From Anaerolineae bacterium (GTDB lineage Bacteria; Chloroflexota; Anaerolineae; DRVO01), in NCBI GenBank assembly GCA_012719195.1, contig JAAYAV010000201.1, positions 1 to 32,478 on the forward strand: DNA of 32,478 nt, written 5' to 3'. A program made the position numbers and the translations under genes. Position 1 is the stretch's first letter. Every line of letters starts with the position of its first letter. This document shows, piece after piece, positions 14,523 through 30,010 of this stretch. The notes beneath the pieces were generated by a model. The model did no database searches. It was not told the DNA's origin and saw nothing but the letters and a program-made list of their open reading frames with translations.

Positions 14523-15992
14523 ATGTACCAGACTCTCAGTGCGCGTAATGATGTTTACATCACACCACAGGCGATCATCGCCAACGCCCTGCTGCAGATG
14601 TCGGCCCTGGAACTCGACCAGGCTGTCAGTGAGGCCCTCGCCGAGAACCCCGCCCTGGAGATGCCCTCTCCGGTGGTCTGTCCCCGCTGCGGAACTCCCC
14701 TAGCCAACGGGATCTGCCCTCTGTGTGCGACCCACGGCCGCAACGCCGAGATCCGACGCGACGAGGACGGCTGGTGGAACGATGACTCGCGCTGGCGAAC
14801 GCGAAACATCCCGCTGGGAGAGGAGGACGATTTCGACCCCCTCACCCTGGTAGCCGCGGAGACGACGCTGGCCGAGCACATGCTGGAGCAGTTGGCGCCG
14901 CTCCTTGAGCCGGACGAACTAGAGATCGCCGTCTACATCACCGACTCTCTGGATGTGCATGGCTTCTTCACCGTCCCGCTGGAGGAGGCGGCCGAGCACC
15001 TGCATTGTACCCAGGAGCGGATAGAGGCGGTTCTCGCCAAGGTGCACACCATCGATCCGCCCGGAGTGGGTGCTCGATCGGTGCAGGAGGGGCTGCTCAT
15101 TCAGCTCGCCCAGCTCGAGAACGCCAATGGGTACACGGAGCCCGCCCGGCGCATTCTCAGCGAATGCTGGGACTCCTTCTCCCGCCTGAGCCTGGACGCC
15201 ATCGCCCGCCGGCTGCGTCTCTCCGAAGACGACGTGTCGGAGACTATCACCTTCATCGGGCGCAACCTGAACCCCTTCCCGGCCAACATCAACTGGAGCG
15301 GGCCGGGACCCCGCAGCGAGGGCGGCTCCCTTCAGCCCGATATCATTGTGCGGTCGCGACCGGGAAGCGAGAGCAAGTACGAGATTGAGATCCCGGACAG
15401 CCGGCGCTACCGCCTGCGCGTGAACGGTCTCTACCAGCAGATGGCCCGGGACATCAGGGCCGGCGACTGCCAGGCGACCTACGCGGAGTCCGAACACCTG
15501 CGCGAGCACCTCGCGCAAGCCAGGCTCTTCATCAACTGCGTGCGGCAGCGTTGGCAGACATTGGAGCGAATCGCGCTCGCCCTGGTGGACATTCAGGAGG
15601 AGTTCCTAGACAAGGGGTACCGGCACCTCCGGCCTTTGACTCGCTCTGAGCTCGCCGATATAGTCGGGGTGCATGAGTCTACGGTCGGCAGGGCAGTGGC
15701 CAACAAGGCCATAATGCTGCCCAACAACCGGATCATCCCACTCTCGGACCTTTTCGACGGTTCCCTGGCGGTGAAGTGCGTCATCGAAGAGATAGTGCTC
15801 CAGGAGAACGAAGCCCTGAGCGACCAGAAGATCGCGGACGTCCTCCAGTCTCGGGGCTACAACCTGGCCCGACGGACGGTGGCCAAGTACCGGGACGCGG
15901 TGGGGATTCCACCGGCGCGGGTGCGAGCCGCCCTGAAGACGCGCGCCTGGCGCCCGCTGTGGGTGCCACCCGAGCACGCCGGCGCCTTCTAG
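14523..15992 (+). CDS. rpoN: RNA polymerase sigma-54 factor with zinc-ribbon-like insert
   Basis: ITPQAIIANALLQMSALELDQAVSEALAENPALE (region I), RpoN box ARRTVAKYRDAVGIP, core-binding region; insert CPRCGTPLANGICPLC. ATG 14523 has GGAGG 5 nt upstream (track ORF starts 14508). Confidence 0.95.
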   Translation: MYQTLSARNDVYITPQAIIANALLQMSALELDQAVSEALAENPALEMPSPVVCPRCGTPLANGICPLCATHGRNAEIRRDEDGWWNDDSRWRTRNIPLGEEDDFDPLTLVAAETTLAEHMLEQLAPLLEPDELEIAVYITDSLDVHGFFTVPLEEAAEHLHCTQERIEAVLAKVHTIDPPGVGARSVQEGLLIQLAQLENANGYTEPARRILSECWDSFSRLSLDAIARRLRLSEDDVSETITFIGRNLNPFPANINWSGPGPRSEGGSLQPDIIVRSRPGSESKYEIEIPDSRRYRLRVNGLYQQMARDIRAGDCQATYAESEHLREHLAQARLFINCVRQRWQTLERIALALVDIQEEFLDKGYRHLRPLTRSELADIVGVHESTVGRAVANKAIMLPNNRIIPLSDLFDGSLAVKCVIEEIVLQENEALSDQKIADVLQSRGYNLARRTVAKYRDAVGIPPARVRAALKTRAWRPLWVPPEHAGAF

Positions 15993-18343
15993 ACTTCACT
16001 ATCGGGAGGACCCCGCTCCTCATCGGGGTCGCGGTCCTGATCGTCGCGGCTCTGAGCCTTGGCTATGTCGTTCAGAGCCGTCTGCCCGTCGCTGACGTCG
16101 CCCTCGAATCCAGCTGGGGCGGTGACCCCCTCACCGTCGCCATCGGCGTCGACGGGATGCCGCTCTCCTTCACCCGCAGCGGTGAACGCGTGGGCCTGTG
16201 GCCGGATCTCTTTGACCAGGCCCCGCTCGCCAGCCGATCCTGGTCCGTACTGAGCACCTCCGAGTCCGATGCCGCTGCCGCGGCCGCTGCCGGAGCCGCC
16301 GACGTGGCGCTGCTGCCGGTGGTGCGTGGCCAGAGCGCCTTTGGCCTGACAGTGTCGGAGCCCCTGGCCAGTCACTCCGGTTCCCTCTTCGCCCTTGCCC
16401 CCATTCTGGGCACCGAATCCCTCGCCGGGCAGTCAGTGGCTTGGTCCGGCGCCGAGGGTCTGGTCCCGGTGCTAATGCGGCTCGGGGCCGAGCCCGTCGC
16501 CACCATGTCGGTGGACGACTGCCTGACCAGGGTACTCACCGGAACCGTAGTCGCTTGTGCTATGGACGAGGCGGTGGGGCGAGCGCACGCCGCTGCCCTC
16601 GGCCTGAGTGAGCGCCTGCTGATCGTCGGCAGCCCCATAGCCACCATCGACTACATCCTGGCCTGGCGGCCGGCCGATGGCGTGGCCGCAAAGGTACTGC
16701 CACGCTGGATTGCCACGGCGTCCGAGGCGGGCGTGCTGCCCAGCCTGCAACGGCAGTGGCTTGGAATGCCCCTGCAGACGCGCATGGCTCCCAGCTGGAC
16801 CGGCATTAGCAGCGGACTGGCGGCGGCCTTGGCCAGCGTGTCAATGGTTGCCGTCGCCGTCGGGCTCCAGAACCGCCGGCTGCGGTCGACCATCTCCCGG
16901 CGAGCGCGCGCCTTGGCGCGCTCGGAGCCACGACACGCCGCGGCCTTCCAGGCCACCCGCGACGCGGTCTTCGTTCTCGAGCCGCGCGAGCTGACCATCC
17001 TCGAGGCCAACCAACGCGCCTACGAGCTAACAGGTCACGAACCCGGCCGGCTGATTGGAGTGCAGTTCACTGAACTTCTCCCGGCTCGACAGCGGCGACT
17101 ACTGCGCCGGACCTTCCTGGACGAGGAGCCGGTGGACCTGGATGACCTGCCGTTAGTTCACACGGAAGGCACTGTCGCCACCGTGTCCCTTCATAGCTTC
17201 GTGGTGGCAACCGCGTCTGGGACCGAGCGAGTGTGCCTGGCCACCGATATGACTGAGAGTATCGGCAATCGGCGCGAGGTCGACCGCCTGGCCGACCTCG
17301 CACGGCGCCTGATCCAGGCGGTACCGGTGCCCCTGCTCGTCATCGATGCCGCCGGGCAAGTGCTGGCGGCCAACCCAGCAGTGACGCGAATCGGACTGCC
17401 CGAGGACGCCGCCGGCCAACCCGTGGACAACTTGCTCCAGTCCACGCCGGAGCCCATGGGCAAGCAGATAGCCTCGCTGGTAGGCCGGCGCGACGGCAGC
17501 AGCCAGGCAACGACTGTCATGGCTGGAGCCGACAGCGAGTCCGGTGTGCCCGGTACACTCGCCCCGCTGGGAGAGGACACAAACCCTTGGGGAGCGCTCC
17601 TCGTGGTGGCAGAAGCGACCGATGGCGGCCCAGCACCCGGCCAGGATCAGCGCCTCGACGTGCTAAGTGCCCTCGGACAGGTCTCCGGCGTTCTGGCACA
17701 CGACATCCGCTCTCGCGTCACCAACGCCAGCCTGGGTGTGCAGATGCTGGAGGAGGGACTCCCGCCCGACGACCCGGACCGGGTGTCGGTCCGCATCGTG
17801 CGCGAGGAGATCGACTTCACCATGGAGATGGTGGACGACATCCTGACGCTGCTACGGCCGGGCAAGGTGCAGCGTGATGCTTGCCGCGTGGACGAGATTC
17901 TGGAGCGTGTAGTTGTGGCGCAGGCGTCCCTGAGTCATAGTAGTGGCGTAGAAGTGCTGGCGTCGCTCGCCTCGGGGATACCGGCCGTAACCGGAGACCC
18001 GGTGCAGCTCGAGCGCGCCCTCACCAACCTGGTGAAGAACGCTATCGAGGCCTCGCCCGTGGGCGGAGTGGTTAGTGTGGGCGTCGAACTGCTCGCCGGA
18101 GCCGCCCGCGTCAGTGGTCGTGATGAACTGCGCGTCACCATAGCGGACCAGGGTGCGGGGATACCACCCCACATCCGCGGACGGCTCTTCGAGCCCTACG
18201 CCACCGGCAAGCGTGGCGGGACCGGGCTGGGGCTTTCTATCGTGAAGAAGATCATAGATGAGCACAGGGGACGGATCGAGGTGGGTAGCCGCGTCAATAG
18301 CGGAACGACCTTCACCGTCTACCTACCTGTAAGTAGGGATTGA
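15959..18343 (+). CDS. Membrane-bound sensor histidine kinase (extracytoplasmic SBP-like sensor, TM, PAS, HisKA, HATPase_c)
   Basis: TM near LLIGVAVLIVAALSLGYVV; SBP-like region; PAS-like segments; H-box GVLAHDIRSRVTN; NLVKNAIEASPVGG; ADQGAGIPPHIRGRLFEPYATGKRGGTGLGLSIVKKI. GTG 15959 proposed because the 5' extension in the track ORF overlaps rpoN. Confidence 0.87.
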   Translation: MGATRARRRLLDFTIGRTPLLIGVAVLIVAALSLGYVVQSRLPVADVALESSWGGDPLTVAIGVDGMPLSFTRSGERVGLWPDLFDQAPLASRSWSVLSTSESDAAAAAAAGAADVALLPVVRGQSAFGLTVSEPLASHSGSLFALAPILGTESLAGQSVAWSGAEGLVPVLMRLGAEPVATMSVDDCLTRVLTGTVVACAMDEAVGRAHAAALGLSERLLIVGSPIATIDYILAWRPADGVAAKVLPRWIATASEAGVLPSLQRQWLGMPLQTRMAPSWTGISSGLAAALASVSMVAVAVGLQNRRLRSTISRRARALARSEPRHAAAFQATRDAVFVLEPRELTILEANQRAYELTGHEPGRLIGVQFTELLPARQRRLLRRTFLDEEPVDLDDLPLVHTEGTVATVSLHSFVVATASGTERVCLATDMTESIGNRREVDRLADLARRLIQAVPVPLLVIDAAGQVLAANPAVTRIGLPEDAAGQPVDNLLQSTPEPMGKQIASLVGRRDGSSQATTVMAGADSESGVPGTLAPLGEDTNPWGALLVVAEATDGGPAPGQDQRLDVLSALGQVSGVLAHDIRSRVTNASLGVQMLEEGLPPDDPDRVSVRIVREEIDFTMEMVDDILTLLRPGKVQRDACRVDEILERVVVAQASLSHSSGVEVLASLASGIPAVTGDPVQLERALTNLVKNAIEASPVGGVVSVGVELLAGAARVSGRDELRVTIADQGAGIPPHIRGRLFEPYATGKRGGTGLGLSIVKKIIDEHRGRIEVGSRVNSGTTFTVYLPVSRD

Positions 18344-18351
18344 GGTCAGAA

Positions 18352-19713
18352 ATGCCCGGAAGCATCCTTATCGTTGAAGACGACGTCAGTACCAGGCTCT
18401 TTCTGGCCACGTCGATCCGCCGCGATGGCTATGTGGTTCGCGAGGCCAGCACGGTAGAGGAGGCCCTAGACCAACTCCAGAAGCATCCCATCGACCTAGT
18501 GATTCTCGACCTGGGGCTGCCCGACCGTTCCGGGATGGAGCTGCTTCCGGAGGTCACCGCGTCCGATCCGAATCTGCCCGTAATCGTCCTCACGTCGTCG
18601 CAAGAGCCTGCCGACGCCGTGCTGGCCATGAAGCTTCGCGCCTGCGACTTCCTCATAAAACCCCCGAATCTTGTGTCTCTGAAACAGATCATCGCCCACC
18701 TCCTCAACACCGCTCAGCTGCACGATCACATCGAGGTGCTCAAGTCCAGCCAGGGAGACGCGTCTCAGCCCTTTGTGCTGGGCAAGAGCCGGGCTATGGG
18801 GCAGGTGCTGGAGATGGTCGAGGACGTCGCGCCGCTGCCGACGAGTGTCCTCATTCTGGGCGAGAGCGGAACCGGCAAGGAGCGCATCGCCAGGCTCCTC
18901 CACGACCGGAGCCCTCGGGCCAGGCACCCGTTCATTGCCGTCAACACCGCTGCCATACCCGACAATCTGATGGAGAGCGAGTTCTTCGGCGCCATGCGCG
19001 GTTCATACTCAGGCGCCACCAAGGATCGCAAGGGTATCATCGAGCACACCCACGGCGGGACCCTCTTTCTGGATGAGATCAGCTCCATGAAGCCCGACCT
19101 TCAGGTGAAGCTGCTGCGCGTCCTCGAGGACGGCAAGGTCCGTCGGCTGGGATCGAGCTCCGATATCGAGGTGGACACGCGGATCATCAGCGCCTCCAAC
19201 CAGGACCTACAGGAGATGATCCAGGCGGGCACGTTCCGCGAGGATCTCTACTACCGGCTGGCGGTGGTGGTCATCGAGTTGCCGCCCCTGCGGGAGCGCC
19301 TAGAGGACATCCCCGACCTGACGGCCGCCTATATCGATCACTTCAACCGCGAGCTGAGCCGCTTCGTGGAAGGAGTGACACCGGAAGCGCTATCCTGCCT
19401 GAAGGCCTACTCCTGGCCCGGCAACATCCGGGAGCTCCGCAACGTGATCGAGCGGGCCATGATCAGGGCCAAGGAGGGCGAGATCGGGCTGGAGCACCTG
19501 CCGCGGGAGCTCCAGAGGGTCAGTTTGAGAGCGATCTCGCCGCGGCCCACCGCCAGGGACGATCCCGGACGCCTCGCCCACTCCCTGGTTGACTATGATA
19601 AGCAGCTTATCAGCCAGGCGCTGGTACAGGCCGACGGAGACCGCGAGTATGCCGCCAGGCTACTCGGCATCACCGTCGAGGAGATGGACCGCCGGCTGGC
19701 CGCCTCGAGCTGA
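18352..19713 (+). CDS. NtrC-family sigma54-dependent response regulator (REC-AAA+-Fis-like)
   Basis: ILIVEDDVSTRLFLATSIRRDGY; VILDLGLPDRSG; Walker A GESGTGKERIARLLHDRSP; GSYSGA loop; GGTLFLDEISSM; FREDLYYRLAVVVIELPPLRER; YSWPGNIRELRNVIERAMI. Confidence 0.95.
   Translation: MPGSILIVEDDVSTRLFLATSIRRDGYVVREASTVEEALDQLQKHPIDLVILDLGLPDRSGMELLPEVTASDPNLPVIVLTSSQEPADAVLAMKLRACDFLIKPPNLVSLKQIIAHLLNTAQLHDHIEVLKSSQGDASQPFVLGKSRAMGQVLEMVEDVAPLPTSVLILGESGTGKERIARLLHDRSPRARHPFIAVNTAAIPDNLMESEFFGAMRGSYSGATKDRKGIIEHTHGGTLFLDEISSMKPDLQVKLLRVLEDGKVRRLGSSSDIEVDTRIISASNQDLQEMIQAGTFREDLYYRLAVVVIELPPLRERLEDIPDLTAAYIDHFNRELSRFVEGVTPEALSCLKAYSWPGNIRELRNVIERAMIRAKEGEIGLEHLPRELQRVSLRAISPRPTARDDPGRLAHSLVDYDKQLISQALVQADGDREYAARLLGITVEEMDRRLAASS
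19596..19612. promoter_or_regulatory. Candidate enhancer/UAS: perfect palindrome TGATAAGC-A-GCTTATCA
   Basis: 8-bp perfect arms around one central base, AT-rich within GC-rich coding DNA, ~145 bp upstream of the predicted start from the sigma54 promoter at 19723. Confidence 0.45.
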
Positions 19714-19798: not shown

Positions 19799-20179
19799 AT
19801 GGTCCCACAGCGCGTACTCCTGGTTGACGATCAGCCCGCGGCGCTACACTTCCTGCGCAGCGGCCTTCTGCACGCCTGGCCCTCCTGTCAGGTGGACTTG
19901 GCCGGCAACGCGACCCAGGCCGAGCCGCTCATCCGGCGGCACCGCTATGACGCCATGATTACCGACTACCACCTAGGAGACGGCACCGGGCTGGACCTGG
20001 CCCGGCTGGCCCGGCGACGACTGCCGCTGGCTACCATCGTTCTCACTTCGGCTTCGCCGTATGCCCTTGCCGATGCAGAGATCGAGGCGCGCGAGTGCTG
20101 CATCGGTCTGTTGCCGAAGCCCATCGAGTTCAGTCGACTCCTGCAGTCACTGCAGGTAGATCCGGTGGTGGTGCCATGA
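19799..20179 (+). CDS. Stand-alone response-regulator receiver domain protein
   Basis: RVLLVDDQPAALHFLRSGLL; AMITDYHLGDGTGLDLA; IVLTSASPYA; LLPKPIEFSRLLQSL. ATG 19799 follows P2. Confidence 0.87.
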   Translation: MVPQRVLLVDDQPAALHFLRSGLLHAWPSCQVDLAGNATQAEPLIRRHRYDAMITDYHLGDGTGLDLARLARRRLPLATIVLTSASPYALADAEIEARECCIGLLPKPIEFSRLLQSLQVDPVVVP

Positions 20180-20508
20180 CTCTCGCGCTGGACAGTGAAC
20201 TTCTTCGCATCGCCATGGCAGTTGTGCTCTTCCTGCTGGGCGTCGTCGCCCTTATAGCCGGCCTGCGCCTTATCCTTGCCGGCGAGTACCGCGACGGCAT
20301 GAAGGAACTGGTGGCGCAGTCCACCCGGGTCAGCAAGCGTGGCGTCACCGAGCAGAGCGTGGCCCCCATCATCGAGGCCACCTCCCGGCTTATTGACTCC
20401 GTGGCCGGCCTCGTCCGGACGGCCTTCGGCATGGGAGCCTTCCTGTGTCTTCTCGGTGTCGCTCTGTGCACCATCTCTGTTTGGATCATTTGGGTCACGC
20501 TACCGTGA
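20176..20508 (+). CDS. Small membrane protein with two TM segments of unknown function
   Basis: ATGA overlap with the receiver gene; hydrophobic stretches IAMAVVLFLLGVVALIAGLRLIL and GMGAFLCLLGVALCTISVWIIWVTL. Confidence 0.72.
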   Translation: MTLALDSELLRIAMAVVLFLLGVVALIAGLRLILAGEYRDGMKELVAQSTRVSKRGVTEQSVAPIIEATSRLIDSVAGLVRTAFGMGAFLCLLGVALCTISVWIIWVTLP

Positions 20509-20519
20509 TTGGAGGTTCC

Positions 20520-23500
20520 ATGGCCGATGTAAGCGCGGTCCCCGGCGCACTCCCCCTCAACCTGCGGGACCAGCGAACTCAGCACACTACCATCGTCACT
20601 ACCGACCTCGAGATGGCCTCGCTTGGCGGTGAGGGCACGACCCTAGTGCTGACCGGTCGAGCCGGAGACGCCCCGGCGATCCCTCACTGGCTTGCCCGCT
20701 CCAGCAGCATCAACTGCGTCCGTCTCTTGGGCGTGCCTGAGATAGAGAACCTCTCGCCGACTTCCGCGGAGCGGTTGGTCGTCTTCGGTACGCGCGAGGT
20801 GGCAGCGGAGCTGACGAAGCGCCTCGACGGCGCCGTCGCGCTAGTGGTGGAACCGGCGCAGGACGCGCAGGTCGCCGCCGCCATCGCGCGCGCCCTGCCG
20901 AGCGGACTCGCGAACGAGCTCTCGGCTGAGGCCCTGCGCGACCCGGAGCTCTGGAGCGCCCTGCACCTGGAGCAGTTCCTGGGCACAGCCATCCGCCTCA
21001 CGCGTCAGGAAGGCGGGACAGCTTGGCTCTCGCGCGCGGCCCTCGTGACCGAGGCGGCTCTAGCGGTAGGAGTAGGCCAGGATCTCCTGCGACGGCTCGG
21101 CGATCGAGTTCTGCAGGGGACTGGTGCCGTCGGCGGGGAGACGGACGCTTCGTCGATGCGGGCTCTCCTATCGGGGCGGCCCGAACCGTTGGCCGTCCAC
21201 CGGCTCTGGGAGGACTACGCGGTCGCCCAGTCGCTCTTGGCCGAGGCACCCGTCGTCCGTACTCTGGTGGCCAATCTAGTGCCCGCCGGGAGCGGCACCG
21301 TAGTCAGCATGCTCTACGGCCTGGCCGACAGCCGCCTCGAGTGGATCCAAGCGCTGATGGCCGAGGGGCCTCAGGGCGCCGAGATGCTGGCCCGCTGCAT
21401 CGCCTGGCAGGATGACCCCAGCGCTCGCCAAGGTTGCGTGGCGGCCGCAGTCGCCGGCGTGTCCGACGCCACCGCGGTGGCCACGTTGGTGCGCGCCCTG
21501 GACGGACTGGTGGGTGCCGACGTGGTGGCGCCGGCAGTGGAAGCGCTCCGGTCACTCGCCCCCAGCAACCTGGCCGCCGTGCACTACATCCTCGCGGGGA
21601 CGGCCATGGCCGCGCGAGTACTGGAGGCACCCGCACTCGCACTGGGGCTGCCGGGCGCAGACTCCGGCCAAGCGGTCGAGTCCGGCATTGAGGCGGCCCT
21701 GAGCACGGCCGACTCCCTGCGCGCGAATCTGCTGTTCCAGCTCGGTCGGTCGGCGGAGGCCAAGGGAGACTGGCAGGAAGCGGCCACTCGCTACCACGCC
21801 GCCTGGCAGTCTGGCCAGCGACTGTCAGTCTACGCCGGCGCGGCGGCGCGCGCCCTGAGTAGAGCCGGGCGTTACGACGACGCCATCCAGGTGCTGGACT
21901 CCGTTGGAGCCACCCTTCCGTCCGATCCCTCGCTGCTTGTGCAACGCGCCGAAGCCTACCTCGGTCTCGGCTGGGCCGATGAGGCGTTGCAGACGGCCCA
22001 GTCGGCTGTCGCCCTCTGCCCCGATTCCGCCTTCGCCCGTGCCGCTGCCGGTCGCACGCTCCAGGCCGCCAGCCGCCTCTCCGAGGCGGAAGCCGAGTGG
22101 ATGGAGGCCGTGCGACTGCGGCCCGCCGACGCCGACGCCCACCTCGACCTGGGCCACTGTCGCTCGGCACTGGGCGACCAGGTCTTGGCGCGGCTCGACT
22201 TCGAGCGCGCCGTGGACTTGCGGCGCGACCACCGTGAGGCCTGCAAGGCGCTGGCGGCGCTGTTGCTGCGGCAGGGCGACCATGCCGGCGCCATCCACCA
22301 CCTGGAACGTCTGTCGGAACTAGAGCCGGCGGACGCACAGGTGCGGGTGCAGCTCGCTGAGGCTCTCGATGCCTCGCGTCAGAACGAACGCGCCGAAGCC
22401 GCCTGGCAAGAGATTCTCGAGCAGGTGTCCGATGACTGGGATGGCTTGCTGGCCACCGGCGCCGCTCTGCGGCGAGCCGGCCGCTTCGATGACGCCGTCA
22501 AGACCCTGAAGCGCGCCATTGCCACCGACCCCTCTGCCGTTGCAGCCGGGATTGAGCTCGCCCAGAGCCTCGAAGCGGCCGGACGGACGGAGGAAGCCCT
22601 GGAGGAGTACAACGCCGTCGTCCGGCGCTTCCCCCAGGAGCCTCTTGCCCACTATCACCTGGGCCGATGTGCAGCCCGAATGGGACAGGTAGATGAGGCC
22701 ATCGCCTCCCTTCAGGAGGCTATCGAGCGCGACCCGGCCCTGTCCGAGGCGCACTACGAGCTCGGGCAGCTACACGAGCATCGAGGGGCACGGGCCGAGG
22801 CACTGGAGTCATACCGTGCCGCTGCTCTCGGCTCAGGCGGCAACCCCCACTATCACGGTGAAGCGGGGCGCCTCTGCCTTGGCCTGGGCCGGTACGAGGA
22901 GGCCGTCCAGCACCTGCGCCGGGCCACCGCGGGGCCGGCAGCCGACGCCGAGACCTACGCCGCTCTCGGAGACGCCCTCTTCCATCGCGGCGCCGACGAG
23001 CAAGCCATGGCTGCCTACCGAAGCGCGGTCGACGGCGAGCCCACCAACCCGTCCTACCATGGCCGGCTGGCTCAGTCGGCCCTCAGGCTGGGCCGGGTCA
23101 ACCAGGCCCTGCGGGAGGCCGAGGAGGCGGTTCGCTTAGCTCCCGACGATCCCGAGTACTTGGCGCTCAAAGCCCAACTGCTGCTGGACATGGGTCGCTC
23201 CCTGACTGCCACCGAGGTGCTGCGGCGCGCCGTCTCCCTCCCCGGTGGCGACGCCTTCCGGGCCGTGCTGGGCGCCGCCTACCGTCGCTCGGGGAACCTG
23301 GAGGCGGCCGAAGCCGAACTCACGGCCGCCGTCGGGCAGCGCCCCGACGACCCGCTCATCCATGAGGAACTGGGTGCCCTCTATGCCGCCCGCGGCGATG
23401 TCGAAGGCGCCCTGCGCGAGGTGCACCACGCCCTCGAACTGGAGACAGACAGCATCGATGCCCGTGTCCGGTTAGCCACCGCCCTGGCTGACCTGGGCGA

Positions 23501-26500
23501 GGCCGAGGAGAGCTGCGAGACCTTGAGACAGACGGTCGAGGCAGCTCCGGAGAGAGGATCAGCGCACGCCGCCTTCGGCCTGGTGCTGGAGCGCCTGGGC
23601 CGACTCTCCGAGTCCCACGCTTCTCTCGAACGCGCCGCCTCTCTGGATGAGCAGTCGACTGCCACCCTCATCGCCCTGGGACGGGTCTGCCGGAAGCTGG
23701 GCGACCATCAGGGCTCGCTGCAGCATCTCCGCGCGGCGGAGGCCAACTCGGCGGACCATCCCGAGGTGCACCACCAGATGGGGCTGACGCTCACGGCCGT
23801 CGGTCGAGCCCACGACGCCTACCGCCATCTGCATGAGGCTCTACGCTTGACCGGTCCCTCCGGTCCCATCCTCGAATCGCTGGGCCGCGCGCAGCTGGCT
23901 GCCGACGAGGTGGATGCCGCCATCGCCACGCTCGAGAAGAGCATTGGCTGCGACCCCAAGGCCGAAGGCCCCCGCGAGGCGCTTGCCCGCGCCTTCGCCG
24001 CCAAGGGCTGGAACCAGGAAGCGGTGGACCAACTGACGGAGGCGGCCGAGGACCATCCCGCATCGGCGTCCCTCCGGCTGGCACTGGCAGAACTGCTTCG
24101 CGGGCGAAGCCTGCACACCCCGGCGGCCGCCGCGCTACAGCAGGCGGCCCGTCTTGCCGGCCCCGACCCGGAACTGCTGCAGCGTATCGCCGACGCCCTG
24201 ATGAGAAACGGCGAAAGCCACGAAGCCAAGCCGGTGCTCCAGCGCGTCCGGGAACTGGTGCCGGACTCCTGGGCCGCCGGGCTTGCCCTCGTTGACGCCC
24301 ACCTGGCGCTCGGCGAGCACCACGAGGCGAAGGCGCTTCTGGAGGATCTGGTCTCCCGGCGTGAAGCCAGCGCCGAGGCCCACTACCGCCTCTCTCAGCT
24401 TCACCTGCAGGAAGGCGAGCCTCAGCTGGCACTCGAGTCGGCTACCAAGGCGGTAGCCCTCGAACCCGACGACGCCGCCATTCGCGCTCACCGGGCCAAG
24501 GTGCTCGCCAAGTGTGGCGCTGTGTTGCAGGCCCTGCCCGAGGCGCAGCGAGCCGTGGAACTCAGCCAGGACAATCCGGACGCGGTCGCCACCCTTGCCG
24601 CCCTGCTCACGGCGAGCGGCCGCTACCAGGACGCCCTGGGGTGGTATGAGCATGCAACCGAACTCGAACCCGGCGACGCCTCCCTCTGGCGTGAGCGCGG
24701 ACGGCTGGCCCTCAGTCTTGACAACCCGGAGTTGGCGGCGCAGTCACTTCAGCGGGCGGTCGAACTGCGGCCCGACAGCAGTGAGTCGTTCAGTCTGGCC
24801 GCCGAGGCTCTTGATCGAGCCGGCCGGCTTGAATCGGCCATCGACATGGCCCGAAGAGCTCACGACCTTGAGCCGGACTCAGTCGACCTTCGACTGAGGC
24901 TCGGTCGCCTCCTGCGCCGTGGCCGGCGGCTCTCGGAGGCGGCGGAGGTCCTCGAGGCCGGCGGCGACAGCGTCCCTCGGGAGTTCGTCCTCGAGCGGGC
25001 TCGCGTGCTTGCCGCCCGTGGGCGTCACGAGAAAGCCCTTCGCCTGTACCAGCAGACGCTGGAGCGCTCGGCCGACAACCTCGAGACGCTGTTGGAGATG
25101 TCGGAGAGCGCCCTCGCCTGGCAGCAGCAAGCCGAGGCCGAGGCCGAGGCCGGTGTCGCAGTGGCAGCTCCTGAACCGGGAGTGTTGGCGACCCTCCAAC
25201 AACTGATCACCAGGTTCCGGCCCGCCCCTGCCCTGGAGGGCCGCTACCTGGCGGCGAGCGCCGGCCTCATGGCGGCTCTCGGCGCGCATGCCGAAGCGCT
25301 CGACATGTGCCGAGATGCGCTCGAGCACTCTCCGGACGACCCGCAACTCCGCCGCCGCTTGGCCACCCTGCTGATGCAGTCGGGCCGGGTGAAGGAGTCG
25401 CTGCGCGAACTGGTCATCGCCGATAAGGCGCAGCCCGGCGATCCGGAGACGGTCCTCAGCATAGGCCGCCTCCTGCTCGATGTTCGCGAGACGGAACGGG
25501 GCGCGGCGGCTTTGCAGCGCGCTGGCCGCCTCGCCGGCGACGATCCGTTCACCCTGGCGAGGGTGGCGCGGCTCCTCGAGCGGGCGGGCAAGCGCGAGGA
25601 GGCGGTAGCGCCCCTCGAGGCAGCGGTAGCGGCCGACGATCAGCACCCGGAGTGGTGGAACCAGTTGGGCGAACTGCAGCTGGGCCTGCAGCGCTACCAG
25701 TCGGCCCTGGAAGCCTTCCAGCGGGCCTCTCGTCTCGACCCGGACAGCGCCCTCTACCTGCGAAACGCCTCCCGGGCCTACAGCGGCATGCGCCGCTTCC
25801 AGTCGGCCGCTCGTGCCCTGGAGCGGGCCACCGATCTGGCGCCCGAGAACGCCGCCTGGATGGCGGAACTGGCGGAAACCTACCAGTCCGCCGGAGAGAT
25901 TGCCCGCGCCGCGCAGGTATATGAGCTGGCCTGCCGGCTGGAGCCAGCCAACCCGGCCCACTACGTCGGCCTCGGCAACGCCCAGTCGCGCTTGGGGAGG
26001 CTGCAGGATGCCGGCAAGTCGCTCTCTAGCGCTCTAGAGCTCGATCCCGGAGTGGGGAGCGTTCACGCCGCTTTGGGACGGCTGCGCTATCTCGAGGGCC
26101 AGCGCGATGCCGCTATCGCCTCATTCGAGGAGGCCATTCGCGTCGATCCTTCCAGCCACCGTCACCATCAGGAACTCGCCACGCTCCTGTACCTCTCGGG
26201 GGACACGCGTCGCGCGCTGGAGGAGTCGGAAGTGGCGGCCTCGCTCGAGCCCACCGACCCGGAGAACTACGTGGTGATGGCCCAGGCCCACGCCGCCCTC
26301 AACCGCCGGGACGAGGCAGTGCAGGACCTGGAGCAAGCTCTGGCCCTGGACAACACCAACGCCGACGTCCACCACGCCATGGGCGAACTGTGCCGCCAGA
26401 TCGGCTACCACGAGCGGGCTGAGGAGCACTTCCGGCAGGTGATCAGCTTGCGGCCCAAGGACGCTGAGGCCCGGAACCAACTGGGCCAGACCTACGAACA

Positions 26501-26741
26501 CGCCCAGCAGTACGACAAAGCCCTGGCGCAGTATCTACGGGCCATCGAACTGGACTCGGAGGAGCCGGAGTACTACTTCAACGCCGGACGTACCCACAAG
26601 AAGCGTAAGGAGTACTCCGAGGCCCAAGCCATGTTCATGGAGGTCCTGCGCCTGGCCCCGGCCAACACCGAGGCCTACAAGCAACTCGCAGCCGTGAGCG
26701 CCCTCAGCCTGGCGGGTGATGTGCGTGCCATTGCCCGATGA
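20520..26741 (+). CDS. Giant (~2073 aa) tetratricopeptide-repeat solenoid protein with ~400-aa non-TPR N-terminal region
   Basis: ATG 20520 with GGAGGT SD; dozens of ~34-aa TPR repeats (e.g. AHYHLGRCAARMGQVDEAIASLQEAIERDP; VHAALGRLRYLEGQRDAAIASFEEAIRVDP). No signal peptide. Confidence 0.93.
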   Translation: MADVSAVPGALPLNLRDQRTQHTTIVTTDLEMASLGGEGTTLVLTGRAGDAPAIPHWLARSSSINCVRLLGVPEIENLSPTSAERLVVFGTREVAAELTKRLDGAVALVVEPAQDAQVAAAIARALPSGLANELSAEALRDPELWSALHLEQFLGTAIRLTRQEGGTAWLSRAALVTEAALAVGVGQDLLRRLGDRVLQGTGAVGGETDASSMRALLSGRPEPLAVHRLWEDYAVAQSLLAEAPVVRTLVANLVPAGSGTVVSMLYGLADSRLEWIQALMAEGPQGAEMLARCIAWQDDPSARQGCVAAAVAGVSDATAVATLVRALDGLVGADVVAPAVEALRSLAPSNLAAVHYILAGTAMAARVLEAPALALGLPGADSGQAVESGIEAALSTADSLRANLLFQLGRSAEAKGDWQEAATRYHAAWQSGQRLSVYAGAAARALSRAGRYDDAIQVLDSVGATLPSDPSLLVQRAEAYLGLGWADEALQTAQSAVALCPDSAFARAAAGRTLQAASRLSEAEAEWMEAVRLRPADADAHLDLGHCRSALGDQVLARLDFERAVDLRRDHREACKALAALLLRQGDHAGAIHHLERLSELEPADAQVRVQLAEALDASRQNERAEAAWQEILEQVSDDWDGLLATGAALRRAGRFDDAVKTLKRAIATDPSAVAAGIELAQSLEAAGRTEEALEEYNAVVRRFPQEPLAHYHLGRCAARMGQVDEAIASLQEAIERDPALSEAHYELGQLHEHRGARAEALESYRAAALGSGGNPHYHGEAGRLCLGLGRYEEAVQHLRRATAGPAADAETYAALGDALFHRGADEQAMAAYRSAVDGEPTNPSYHGRLAQSALRLGRVNQALREAEEAVRLAPDDPEYLALKAQLLLDMGRSLTATEVLRRAVSLPGGDAFRAVLGAAYRRSGNLEAAEAELTAAVGQRPDDPLIHEELGALYAARGDVEGALREVHHALELETDSIDARVRLATALADLGEAEESCETLRQTVEAAPERGSAHAAFGLVLERLGRLSESHASLERAASLDEQSTATLIALGRVCRKLGDHQGSLQHLRAAEANSADHPEVHHQMGLTLTAVGRAHDAYRHLHEALRLTGPSGPILESLGRAQLAADEVDAAIATLEKSIGCDPKAEGPREALARAFAAKGWNQEAVDQLTEAAEDHPASASLRLALAELLRGRSLHTPAAAALQQAARLAGPDPELLQRIADALMRNGESHEAKPVLQRVRELVPDSWAAGLALVDAHLALGEHHEAKALLEDLVSRREASAEAHYRLSQLHLQEGEPQLALESATKAVALEPDDAAIRAHRAKVLAKCGAVLQALPEAQRAVELSQDNPDAVATLAALLTASGRYQDALGWYEHATELEPGDASLWRERGRLALSLDNPELAAQSLQRAVELRPDSSESFSLAAEALDRAGRLESAIDMARRAHDLEPDSVDLRLRLGRLLRRGRRLSEAAEVLEAGGDSVPREFVLERARVLAARGRHEKALRLYQQTLERSADNLETLLEMSESALAWQQQAEAEAEAGVAVAAPEPGVLATLQQLITRFRPAPALEGRYLAASAGLMAALGAHAEALDMCRDALEHSPDDPQLRRRLATLLMQSGRVKESLRELVIADKAQPGDPETVLSIGRLLLDVRETERGAAALQRAGRLAGDDPFTLARVARLLERAGKREEAVAPLEAAVAADDQHPEWWNQLGELQLGLQRYQSALEAFQRASRLDPDSALYLRNASRAYSGMRRFQSAARALERATDLAPENAAWMAELAETYQSAGEIARAAQVYELACRLEPANPAHYVGLGNAQSRLGRLQDAGKSLSSALELDPGVGSVHAALGRLRYLEGQRDAAIASFEEAIRVDPSSHRHHQELATLLYLSGDTRRALEESEVAASLEPTDPENYVVMAQAHAALNRRDEAVQDLEQALALDNTNADVHHAMGELCRQIGYHERAEEHFRQVISLRPKDAEARNQLGQTYEHAQQYDKALAQYLRAIELDSEEPEYYFNAGRTHKKRKEYSEAQAMFMEVLRLAPANTEAYKQLAAVSALSLAGDVRAIAR

Positions 26742-28200
26742 TGGCGGCGGCCGGGCGCCGCTGCTCCTGCTGGCCTCGCGCTTGCTCCTCACCCGCAAGT
26801 TCGGCGAGCAAGGCTGGATCGCGGTGGACAAGGCTCTCGGGCAGCTGTCCGAGAGCCTTCACTGGCTCCCCGCCCGCCTGCTCTACGTCGATGACGAACG
26901 TTGCCTGTCGCCCTACGGACTGACAGCAGTCTACCCTCGGGAGCCGGAAGGCATCCTGAGCCTCGTCCGTGCAGCAGAGCGCGTCCTGTTCGACGGGCAG
27001 GTATCTGCCGTGTGGCTCATGGGCGGTGACGAACTTCTCCCCTGTTTCCGTCTCGATAACCCGGCCGACGACACGGACTCGGTCATCCTCTCAGATGCTC
27101 CCTACGCTTCACCGGGTGGGGATCCATTCGCCCCCGTCCGTCCAGTGGGACGGCTTCCTCATCTGGACGGTGCGGTCGAGAGCTTCCTTGCGCTCATTGC
27201 CAGGAACACCGCCAGCCAGGTCCTACCCTGCCTCGACGCCTGTCCCGTCGTCTCCGGATACACCGCCAGCATCTGGCGCGAAGCCTCGCAGCAGGTCCTG
27301 ACGGGCATCACCGACACCGGCGCCATGCGGCTCTCGCCGCCGTGGGATCTGAGCGACTACCCCTTCATCCGCCGCCAAGTAGCCCCCATCCGCTACTACA
27401 ACCTGCATGGGCGGCCCGACGGCACCACCTGGCACGGGCAACTGGACCCGGCCGTGCCCGCCGACTTCACCGACTTCCCACCGGCCTTGCGGCAGGTGGA
27501 CATCTCGGCAGCGGAGGCTCGGGGATGCATCGTCGCCACCGAGTCCTGCTACGGCGGCGCTCTGTCCGAGCGGAGCATCGCCTCCCGATTCCTCCGGCTT
27601 GGGGCGGCCTCGTTCCTCGGCTCGACCGCAATGTCGTACGGAGCCCTCGCCTCGCCCATCTCCGGCGCCGACCTGCTCATCCGCGACTTCATCTCGTTGT
27701 GTGCTGCCTCCGTTCCTCTGGGCGAGGCCCTGCTGCGGGCCCGTCTGGCCTTCGCGCGTGTGATGATGGAACGGCAAGGCTTCCTCGACGCCGAGGACCA
27801 GAAGACGCTTCTGAGCTTCCGCCTCCTGGGCAACCCGACTCTGCGGCTGAGCGGAGTCGAGCCCGAGGCGCCGGTAGCGGTGCAGGCGCTGCAGATGCCC
27901 ATGGAGCCGGTCGAGGTAGTCTGCGCCCACGCCGTGCCCACCACCGACGCGCCCGCCCCTCCGGCCAGCCTCCTCGAGGAGATCCAGGAGCTCGCCGCTC
28001 TGTTCCTTCGTTCTGGCCGCAACGACGTCCCTACTCGGCACGCAACTTGCATCACACCTCCAGTGCGCGCCACCAGCGGTCTCAACTCCGCCAACTGCAG
28101 CGTTGTCAGCTTTGATCGAGCCCTGGCGGACGGGCAGGTGGCGGTGGCCAGGTTCACCTTACGTGACGGTCACCTCGCCAAGACCATCGTGTCTCACTAG
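26719..28200 (+). CDS. Clan CD cysteine peptidase, C25 (gingipain)-like, no recognisable signal peptide
   Basis: AVWLMGGDELLPCFRLDNPADDTDSVILSDAPYA; VGRLPHLDG; candidate His in YYNLHGRPDGTTW; candidate Cys in VATESCYGGALSE; LGEALLRARLAF; LLGNPTLRLSG. Overlaps the TPR gene end. Confidence 0.78.
   Translation: MCVPLPDDGGGRAPLLLLASRLLLTRKFGEQGWIAVDKALGQLSESLHWLPARLLYVDDERCLSPYGLTAVYPREPEGILSLVRAAERVLFDGQVSAVWLMGGDELLPCFRLDNPADDTDSVILSDAPYASPGGDPFAPVRPVGRLPHLDGAVESFLALIARNTASQVLPCLDACPVVSGYTASIWREASQQVLTGITDTGAMRLSPPWDLSDYPFIRRQVAPIRYYNLHGRPDGTTWHGQLDPAVPADFTDFPPALRQVDISAAEARGCIVATESCYGGALSERSIASRFLRLGAASFLGSTAMSYGALASPISGADLLIRDFISLCAASVPLGEALLRARLAFARVMMERQGFLDAEDQKTLLSFRLLGNPTLRLSGVEPEAPVAVQALQMPMEPVEVVCAHAVPTTDAPAPPASLLEEIQELAALFLRSGRNDVPTRHATCITPPVRATSGLNSANCSVVSFDRALADGQVAVARFTLRDGHLAKTIVSH
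28036..28051 (+). promoter_or_regulatory. Intragenic sigma54 (-24/-12) promoter upstream of the coiled-coil gene and ftsZ (P3)
   Basis: CGGCACGCAACTTGCA: 15 of 16 bases identical to P1, GG-N10-GC spacing, sense orientation. Confidence 0.68.
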
Positions 28201-28241: not shown

Positions 28242-28685
28242 ATGGAACTCACCGAGCTGATGGACCAGTTGGAAAGCACCGTCTCGGAGGCGCCCTACAT
28301 CCCCATGACCAGCAAGGCGGTCATAGATCAGAACCTGTGCCTCGAGCTCATAGATCGAATCCGCGCCGCCCTGCCGGAAGAGCTGGCGGAAGCGCAGGGG
28401 ATCCTGGCTGCCAAGGAGCGCATCCTGGCGGAGGCCGAGTCTGAGGCCCAGGAACTGCGCCAGCTTGGCCGCCAGCAACTGGAGCAATCCGCCTCCGAGA
28501 GTGAGGCCGTGGCGGTGGCGAAGGAAAGGGCCGCCGAGATCGTCGCCGAGGGCGAGCGCCAGGCCCGTGAGATGGCGGCAGCGGCTCTGGAGTATTCCTC
28601 GTCCATCTACGGACGCCTGGAGGACGACCTCACAGGCATGCTCGAAGACCTTCGGCACCGCGTCCCCGATAAGCAGACTGCTTAG
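28242..28685 (+). CDS. Conserved coiled-coil protein (resembles small proteins often annotated as ATPase- or DivIVA-like)
   Basis: ELMDQLESTVSEAPYIPMTSKAVIDQNLCLELIDRIRAALPEELAEAQGILAAKERILAEAESEAQEL; long heptad-rich helix. Confidence 0.72.
   Translation: MELTELMDQLESTVSEAPYIPMTSKAVIDQNLCLELIDRIRAALPEELAEAQGILAAKERILAEAESEAQELRQLGRQQLEQSASESEAVAVAKERAAEIVAEGERQAREMAAAALEYSSSIYGRLEDDLTGMLEDLRHRVPDKQTA
28670..28684. repeat. Perfect palindrome TAAGCAG-A-CTGCTTA just upstream of ftsZ
   Basis: 7-bp perfect arms overlapping the stop of the coiled-coil gene, 31 bp before the ftsZ start. Confidence 0.5.
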
Positions 28686-28714: not shown

Positions 28715-30010
28715 TTGGAGAAGCTTGAGGAAACCCAGCCAACCCCGTTGAAGCCCGTGGCCATCACGGTAGTGGGAGTGGGAGGCGCCGGCACCAATGC
28801 CGTGGACCGCATGATAAGTGTCGAGATCCCGGACGTGGACTTCCTAGTGCTTAACACCGATGCGCAGGCACTGGAACGCTCCGACGCTCAGCAGCGTATC
28901 TGCCTGGGGGGCCCCCGTACCCGCGGTCTGGGAGCAGGCGGGAATGCCAGCGCCGGCGCGGCGGCCGCCGAGCTCTCCACTGAGGAAATTGCGCGCGCCC
29001 TGGAAGGCTCCGACCTGGTGTTCATCGCCGCCGGCATGGGAGGCGGAACCGGAAGCGGCGCCGCCCCGGTGGTGGCGAAGGTCGCCCGGGCTGCCGGAGC
29101 CCTGACGGTGGGCGTCGTAACACGGCCCTTCTCTTTCGAGGGCTTCCGCCGGCGACAGGTAGCTGATCAGGCCCTGTCAGAACTCGAGAAGCACGTCGAT
29201 ACCCTGATCGTCGTGCCCAACGACAAGCTGCTCGCCTTCACCTCCGAGAAGGTCACGCTGGACATCGCCTTCCGCATCGCGGACGACGTCCTGCGCCAGG
29301 GCATTCAGGGCATTGCCGAGATCATCACTCGGCCCGGACTGATCAACGTCGACTTCGCCGATGTCAGGCGGATTCTCGGCTACGGTGGCATGGGCCTCAT
29401 GTCCATCGCCCAGGCCAAGGGGCCGGAGCGCGCGATCGAAGCGGCTCAGTCTGCCATCGCCAACCCTCTCATCGACTCCGACTCCATCGCCGGAGCCAAG
29501 GGCATCCTCATCAACATTATCGGCGGGCCGGACATGAGCCTGATTGAGGCCGGACAAGCGGTGGAGTACATCACCGAGCGGGCCAGCGAGGACGCCGAGG
29601 TGATCTTCGGCTCTGCCATCGACAACTCCATGGGCGATAAGCTCCAGCTCACCCTAGTCGCAACAGGAGTGGGACAAGCGGCGCCGCAGGCCAAGCACAC
29701 TTCTCCGGCTGCCCGCCCGCGGGCCGATGCCGGGATCCCCTCCGAGCCGCGCGTAGCCGTGCTGCCCCCGGAGTTCGAGGAACGACTGGCTCGGGTGCGG
29801 GATAACGCTCCGGCGGCAGCCGTCACAGAGCGCGAGGTTGCGGCCCCAGGCAACGATAGCGGCAAGCACAACGGCAATGGCAATGGCAACGGGAACGGTC
29901 ATACCCGCCCGGTGTTGCCCCAGATCAGACGCGAGCCCGTAATGGCATCCGCCGAGCGCGGCAGCCTCGAGATCCCGACGTTCCTGCGTCGCGCCCGCGG
30001 GCTCCTCTAG
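28715..30010 (+). CDS. ftsZ: Cell division protein FtsZ
   Basis: VVGVGGAGTNAVDRMI; GMGGGTGSGAAPVVA (tubulin signature); INVDFADVR (T7 loop); C-terminal EIPTFLRR peptide. TTG start. Confidence 0.95.
   Translation: MEKLEETQPTPLKPVAITVVGVGGAGTNAVDRMISVEIPDVDFLVLNTDAQALERSDAQQRICLGGPRTRGLGAGGNASAGAAAAELSTEEIARALEGSDLVFIAAGMGGGTGSGAAPVVAKVARAAGALTVGVVTRPFSFEGFRRRQVADQALSELEKHVDTLIVVPNDKLLAFTSEKVTLDIAFRIADDVLRQGIQGIAEIITRPGLINVDFADVRRILGYGGMGLMSIAQAKGPERAIEAAQSAIANPLIDSDSIAGAKGILINIIGGPDMSLIEAGQAVEYITERASEDAEVIFGSAIDNSMGDKLQLTLVATGVGQAAPQAKHTSPAARPRADAGIPSEPRVAVLPPEFEERLARVRDNAPAAAVTEREVAAPGNDSGKHNGNGNGNGNGHTRPVLPQIRREPVMASAERGSLEIPTFLRRARGLL

Follow-up and report, generated by a model that had tools for sequence, protein, structure and literature searches.

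The window, i.e., the whole 32,478-nt stretch of DNA analyzed here, carries a module of three genes that encode, in this order, a small predicted membrane protein (TM137), a giant TPR solenoid protein and a C25-like clan CD cysteine protease (Table 1). The window is an entire contig (G000:C62) of a metagenome-assembled genome of 2.9 Mb with 93% completeness. A literature search found no description of the TM137–TPR–protease module, which may be an undescribed protease switch acting in cell division or cell-fate control. We propose, tentatively and with slightly less than even confidence, that the three proteins make up a membrane-associated, solenoid-gated clan CD endopeptidase, tied in this class of bacteria to a second FtsZ (FtsZ2) and to remodeling of the envelope.

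Table 1. Coordinates of the module, its domains and its neighbors in the window.
Feature	Positions	Strand	Remarks
Sensor kinase and NtrC-type regulator	15776–19713	+	5' of the module; kinase start uncertain; NtrC homologue at most five genes upstream in 33/54 loci
TM137	20176–20508	+	110 aa, two predicted TM helices; third core gene
Giant TPR solenoid protein	20520–26741	+	2073 aa; ATG 20520; Pfam TPR E 1e-118
TPR protein, N-terminal ~390 aa	20520–21690	+	NACHT/STAND remnant, nucleotide-binding core gone
C25-like clan CD cysteine protease	26716–28200	+	494 aa; alternative starts 26719, 26725
Predicted catalytic His231 (YYNLHG)	27406–27408	+	Invariant in 41-sequence alignment
Predicted catalytic Cys278 (TESCYGG)	27547–27549	+	Invariant in 41-sequence alignment
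C-terminal alpha-beta4 domain of the protease	27913–28197	+	Window copy ends Ser-His
147-aa coiled-coil protein	28242–28685	+	Neighbor kept between protease and FtsZ in 7 relative genomes
FtsZ2, divergent second FtsZ	28715–30010	+	Pfam FtsZ match; canonical FtsZ elsewhere in the genome; tree

Gene order and junctions among relatives

Scans of genome contigs and viral contigs with the protease sequence alone returned no relatives, and an alignment query found them in the genome contigs. The family-alignment scan of GTDB genomes gave 243 relatives, of which 80 were fetched; they belong to Chloroflexota and are annotated mostly as Anaerolineae. A giant TPR gene is located upstream of the protease gene, within two genes, in 67 of the 70 loci with upstream sequence, and 52 of the 54 loci with enough flank have TM137 on the 5' side of that TPR gene. 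The recurring order is TM137, TPR, protease, and with both neighbors kept at these frequencies the unit consists of three genes, not two. The hydropathy profile of TM137 indicates its two TM helices, residues Gly22, Gly29 and Gly85 are invariant, and the protein has no Pfam match.

The TPR neighbor is absent from three protease loci, L111, L112 and L117. The latter two, on MAG contigs of Cloacimonadota and WOR-3, carry a protease-only form of 363–368 aa directly after a kinase and an NtrC gene. A homologue on a rhizobial plasmid was rejected as a member of the module, its neighborhood being unrelated and the TPR partner absent.

Each of the candidate protease starts, GTG 26716, ATG 26719 and GTG 26725, lies within the TPR reading frame. 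In the sister genome the two genes overlap by 17 nt (10879–10895 of L021), and taking GTG 26725 as the start in the window gives the same overlap. Among 69 TPR–protease junctions, 43 are overlapping, with an overlap of exactly 4 nt in 27 of them; counting the junctions with a gap of no more than 30 nt as well brings the number to 62. The starts were chosen mechanically, so that individual junction values may be off.

The first-pass annotation had described two overlapping genes for a two-subunit cytoplasmic protease. Both genes proved real, being forward-strand open reading frames with an overlap that is usual among relatives. The description of their products stood in part: the conserved, usually overlapping pair and the lack of any secretion sign agree with it, but the core of the module is three genes, and the description leaves out the NACHT-TPR partners of many relatives, which we class as signaling proteins, the TPRs within relatives' own protease chains and the FtsZ2 and two-component genes around the module.

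The protease and its solenoid partner

On its own, the sequence of the window protease had no match in Pfam, NCBIfam, PADLOC or PDB. Peptidase_C25 (PF01364) was matched by 11 of 15 aligned relatives (best value 1.5e-17), the window member itself giving no match. An hhalign comparison of the protease family with one canonical C25 peptidase of the same genome was weak (probability 5), for which reason we preferred a fold search. The AlphaFold2 model of the protease (pLDDT 81.5, pTM 0.88) had gingipain R as its top solved structure in Foldseek (E 9e-13), followed by Csx29, SAVED-CHAT, TPR-CHAT of Craspase and separase. Both residues of the predicted dyad are invariant in the alignment, and in the homologue L031 they are lost together, Arg and Gly replacing His and Cys.

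Within the first 60 residues of the TPR protein and of the protease, no 19-residue window has a mean hydropathy above 1.6, and the N-terminus of the protease aligns to, and is modeled as, core strand 1; hence we see neither a signal peptide nor a prodomain. These data agree with the earlier assignment of the protease to clan CD, with neither a secretion signal nor a prodomain. The modeled fold, the C25 matches of relatives and the joint residue loss in L031 are also consistent with the proposed placement of the His/Cys dyad and do not refute it, and we regard these residues as the probable catalytic pair.

It should be noted that L031 adjoins a 3127-aa TPR gene and that its genome (G027) has one FtsZ. 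A canonical C25 peptidase is encoded elsewhere in the window's genome (L119, G000:C354). The CHAT family PF12770 had no match in that genome and none in the Pfam scan of the window. Protease-like copies with in-frame stops (G099:C18:412412-417138, G007:C1:66602-67423, G131:C11 and G162:C1) are possibly decaying paralogues or assembly errors.

The C-terminal domain was modeled with a pLDDT of 90.8 and had no significant fold match in the PDB; neither an inhibitor fold nor a Cystatin/PepSY-type identity, the latter hinted at by the topology, is therefore claimed. Among complete relative proteases, 65 of 67 terminate in Ser-Arg or Ser-Lys, and the window lineage terminates in Ser-His. The same domain also occurs as a stand-alone gene: we found 21 copies of 80–133 aa, 20 of them ending in Ser-Arg, Ser-Lys or Ser-His, and the gene adjoins FtsZ wherever the locus shows FtsZ. 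We infer that a basic C-terminus of this kind might occupy the S1 pocket of an enzyme resembling gingipain.

The TPR repeats of the partner are unambiguous (TPR_2). Most relatives have a longer protease chain than the window, and all three tested, L023 (TPR_16 2e-15), L072 and L033, contain N-terminal TPRs within this chain; the protease of the window lineage has none. The fusion accords with joint action, and it is plausible that the TPR protein binds, inhibits or targets the protease, the genomic data favoring none of these roles over the others. Near-obligate adjacency of overlapping genes across deep divergence, together with these fusions, argues against mere co-transcription of proteins with separate jobs, for which the three loci missing the TPR gene could be cited; in the same way, a dyad invariant in 41 relatives argues against a non-catalytic binding module, as L031, devoid of both catalytic residues, might suggest. 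In either form we hold this alternative to be very improbable.

About 23 of 71 TPR proteins are of the NACHT-TPR type, i.e., they carry the P-loop NTPase core of a STAND NTPase, with the P-loop visible in the alignment; in two partners tested, Pfam NACHT was matched at 1.3e-8 and 8.7e-14. Most TPR partners in the wider set have no NACHT, the TPR-only relatives being ~1650–2100 aa long. An hhalign comparison of window-type and NACHT-TPR N-termini gave a probability of 97.8 and E 6.6e-13 over template positions 181–443 only. In the window, the sister genome and a third family member, the P-loop region is missing and the part after the nucleotide-binding core is retained, a remnant indicating that the NACHT core was lost at least in the window's family.

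The intact P-loops bring to mind a conflict or regulated cell-death system, in which a STAND (NACHT-TPR) sensor would switch on a caspase-like protease and this enzyme would act against the cell via the membrane protein, as in the apoptosome-like systems of multicellular bacteria. The CHAT-related fold, the patchy presence (16/201 genomes of a phylum sample) and the published precedent of a two-gene system of a membrane protein and a caspase (PMC7159879) are consistent with such a role. Yet NACHT is wanting in most partners and is broken in the window, where the module is kept nonetheless; the protease has no PADLOC match, and gene order and housekeeping neighbors (FtsZ2, RpoN, AlaS, SmpB) are constant over many families. 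We consider a death system rather unlikely.

FtsZ2, wall genes and regulatory neighbors

The FtsZ of the window matches Tubulin (E 5.6e-46) and FtsZ_C (E 1.9e-27). In a same-class sample of 100 genomes, at least two FtsZ were found in 13/15 protease-bearing versus 8/85 protease-free genomes (Fisher p = 2.5e-9, not corrected for phylogeny). A further same-class sample showed at least two FtsZ in 4/4 module genomes versus 0/9 module-free genomes, and six more module genomes, including Leptolinea and Anaerolinea, have two each, one second copy being partial. In a tree of 72 FtsZ sequences, 35 canonical copies form a group set off by a branch with 100/99 support, to which none of the 36 module-linked copies belongs; the copy G090a from a module-free genome sits on a very long branch and its placement is unsure, and several module copies are also long.

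Outside the window's class, 9 of 10 module genomes have a single FtsZ; the TPR–protease pair is intact there in L161–L163, and TM137 is present in L162. FtsZ2 was accordingly rejected as an obligate partner everywhere: the link is a feature of the window's class and not part of the core. In about half of the loci the module is followed by AlaS or SmpB, and FtsZ is not in the vicinity.

Genes for SpoIID, MraZ and amidase are present at module loci, a neighborhood that suggests wall or septum work. Proteins of a GH-like family with SpoIID as their C-terminal domain (E 6e-26 in L054) are encoded at 33 loci, including L054, L056 and L060, their genes usually adjoining the module. The 147-aa coiled-coil protein had no Pfam match at the cut-off; it may resemble septation proteins of the SepIVA/DivIVA type.

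RpoN and kinase genes adjoin the module in the window. These genes, the NtrC homologue upstream at 33/54 loci, the short proteases of Cloacimonadota and WOR-3 encoded directly after a kinase and an NtrC gene, and the Craspase precedent (PMC10028731) would fit a regulated-proteolysis switch under control of a kinase/NtrC/RpoN pathway, where the protease cuts TM137 or a regulator and alters gene expression. We judge such a switch unlikely, since a sizeable minority of loci lack the two-component genes or have others in their place, and no sigma–antisigma pair was recognized.

Proposed mechanism and comparison with known systems

In the solenoid-gated endopeptidase that we favor, TM137, the TPR protein and the protease would form a physical complex at the membrane, with the protease as a cytoplasmic C25-like His/Cys enzyme of clan CD. 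The TPR superhelix would be the scaffold that recruits or gates protease and substrate, the TPRs being preceded by a NACHT switch in many relatives, and TM137 would be either the membrane anchor of the assembly or a substrate for its proteolysis. The C-terminal domain with its basic end may dock into the enzyme's own S1 pocket, mimicking a cleaved Arg/Lys product; both basic specificity and autoinhibition are implied in this arrangement. Alternatively, the domain and its stand-alone counterpart next to FtsZ2 may have a partner in common. In the window's class the module would act together with FtsZ2 and the wall enzymes (SpoIID, amidase) in remodeling the septum or envelope, and would in this way have a role in division.

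A more specific version would be a separase-like bacterial machine, in which TM137 anchors a TPR-gated clan CD protease and a product-like basic C-terminus restrains it, the enzyme cleaving a septal or FtsZ2-associated substrate and so timing division or filament fragmentation in Anaerolineae; in this full form we think it decidedly unlikely.

If the general model is true, it would provide a tractable system, namely a conserved solenoid-gated protease paired with a dedicated second FtsZ in filamentous bacteria that are common in the environment. Hosts such as Anaerolinea thermolimosa and Leptolinea tardivitalis are in culture. The system would allow one to ask about the origin of such switches and about the use of site-specific proteolysis in bacterial division.

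Solenoid-gated clan CD proteases (separase, Craspase, apoptosome–caspase) are known switches in division, immunity and death. With peptidase family C25 (gingipains, PF01364), the source of its nearest solved structure, the window protease shares the clan CD fold and the conserved dyad of His followed by Cys; 11/15 close relatives match the family model. It differs in having no apparent signal peptide or prodomain of the classical members and in lying below detection by the family model, and its family differs by its own TPR and C-terminal domains and by the TPR partner gene.

In separase (C50), the solenoid arm is a large helical superhelix that regulates a clan CD protease, as proposed for the module, and the division context of the window's class is alike; in the module, solenoid and protease are on separate chains. 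The resemblance to NACHT-type STAND proteins (apoptosome- or NLR-like) lies in the many relatives with a NACHT-TPR partner, whereas the TPR protein of the window has no P-loop region and most partners in the wider set have no NACHT.

Craspase is among the nearest published themes (PMC10028731, PMC9729208). Its TPR-CHAT/Csx29 protein, from type III-E CRISPR, is alike in joining a TPR solenoid with a cytoplasmic clan CD protease, in agreement with the Foldseek match, and is activated through a partner; Csx29 cuts Csx30 and frees a sigma factor (PMC10028731). For the module, gating by a partner is proposed. The module differs in that its solenoid is mainly in a separate protein of 2000 aa, its catalytic domain is closer to C25 and it has a membrane protein partner; no CRISPR genes were noted in the neighbor tables of its loci.

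The EACC1–caspase system (Kaur et al. 2020, PMC7159879), also among the nearest published themes, is a membrane-associated two-gene system, and there too a gene for a small membrane protein, with one TM helix, is located 5' of a caspase-superfamily gene. Compared with it, the module has two TM helices in its membrane protein, a C25-like protease, a giant NACHT/TPR protein and an FtsZ2 context.
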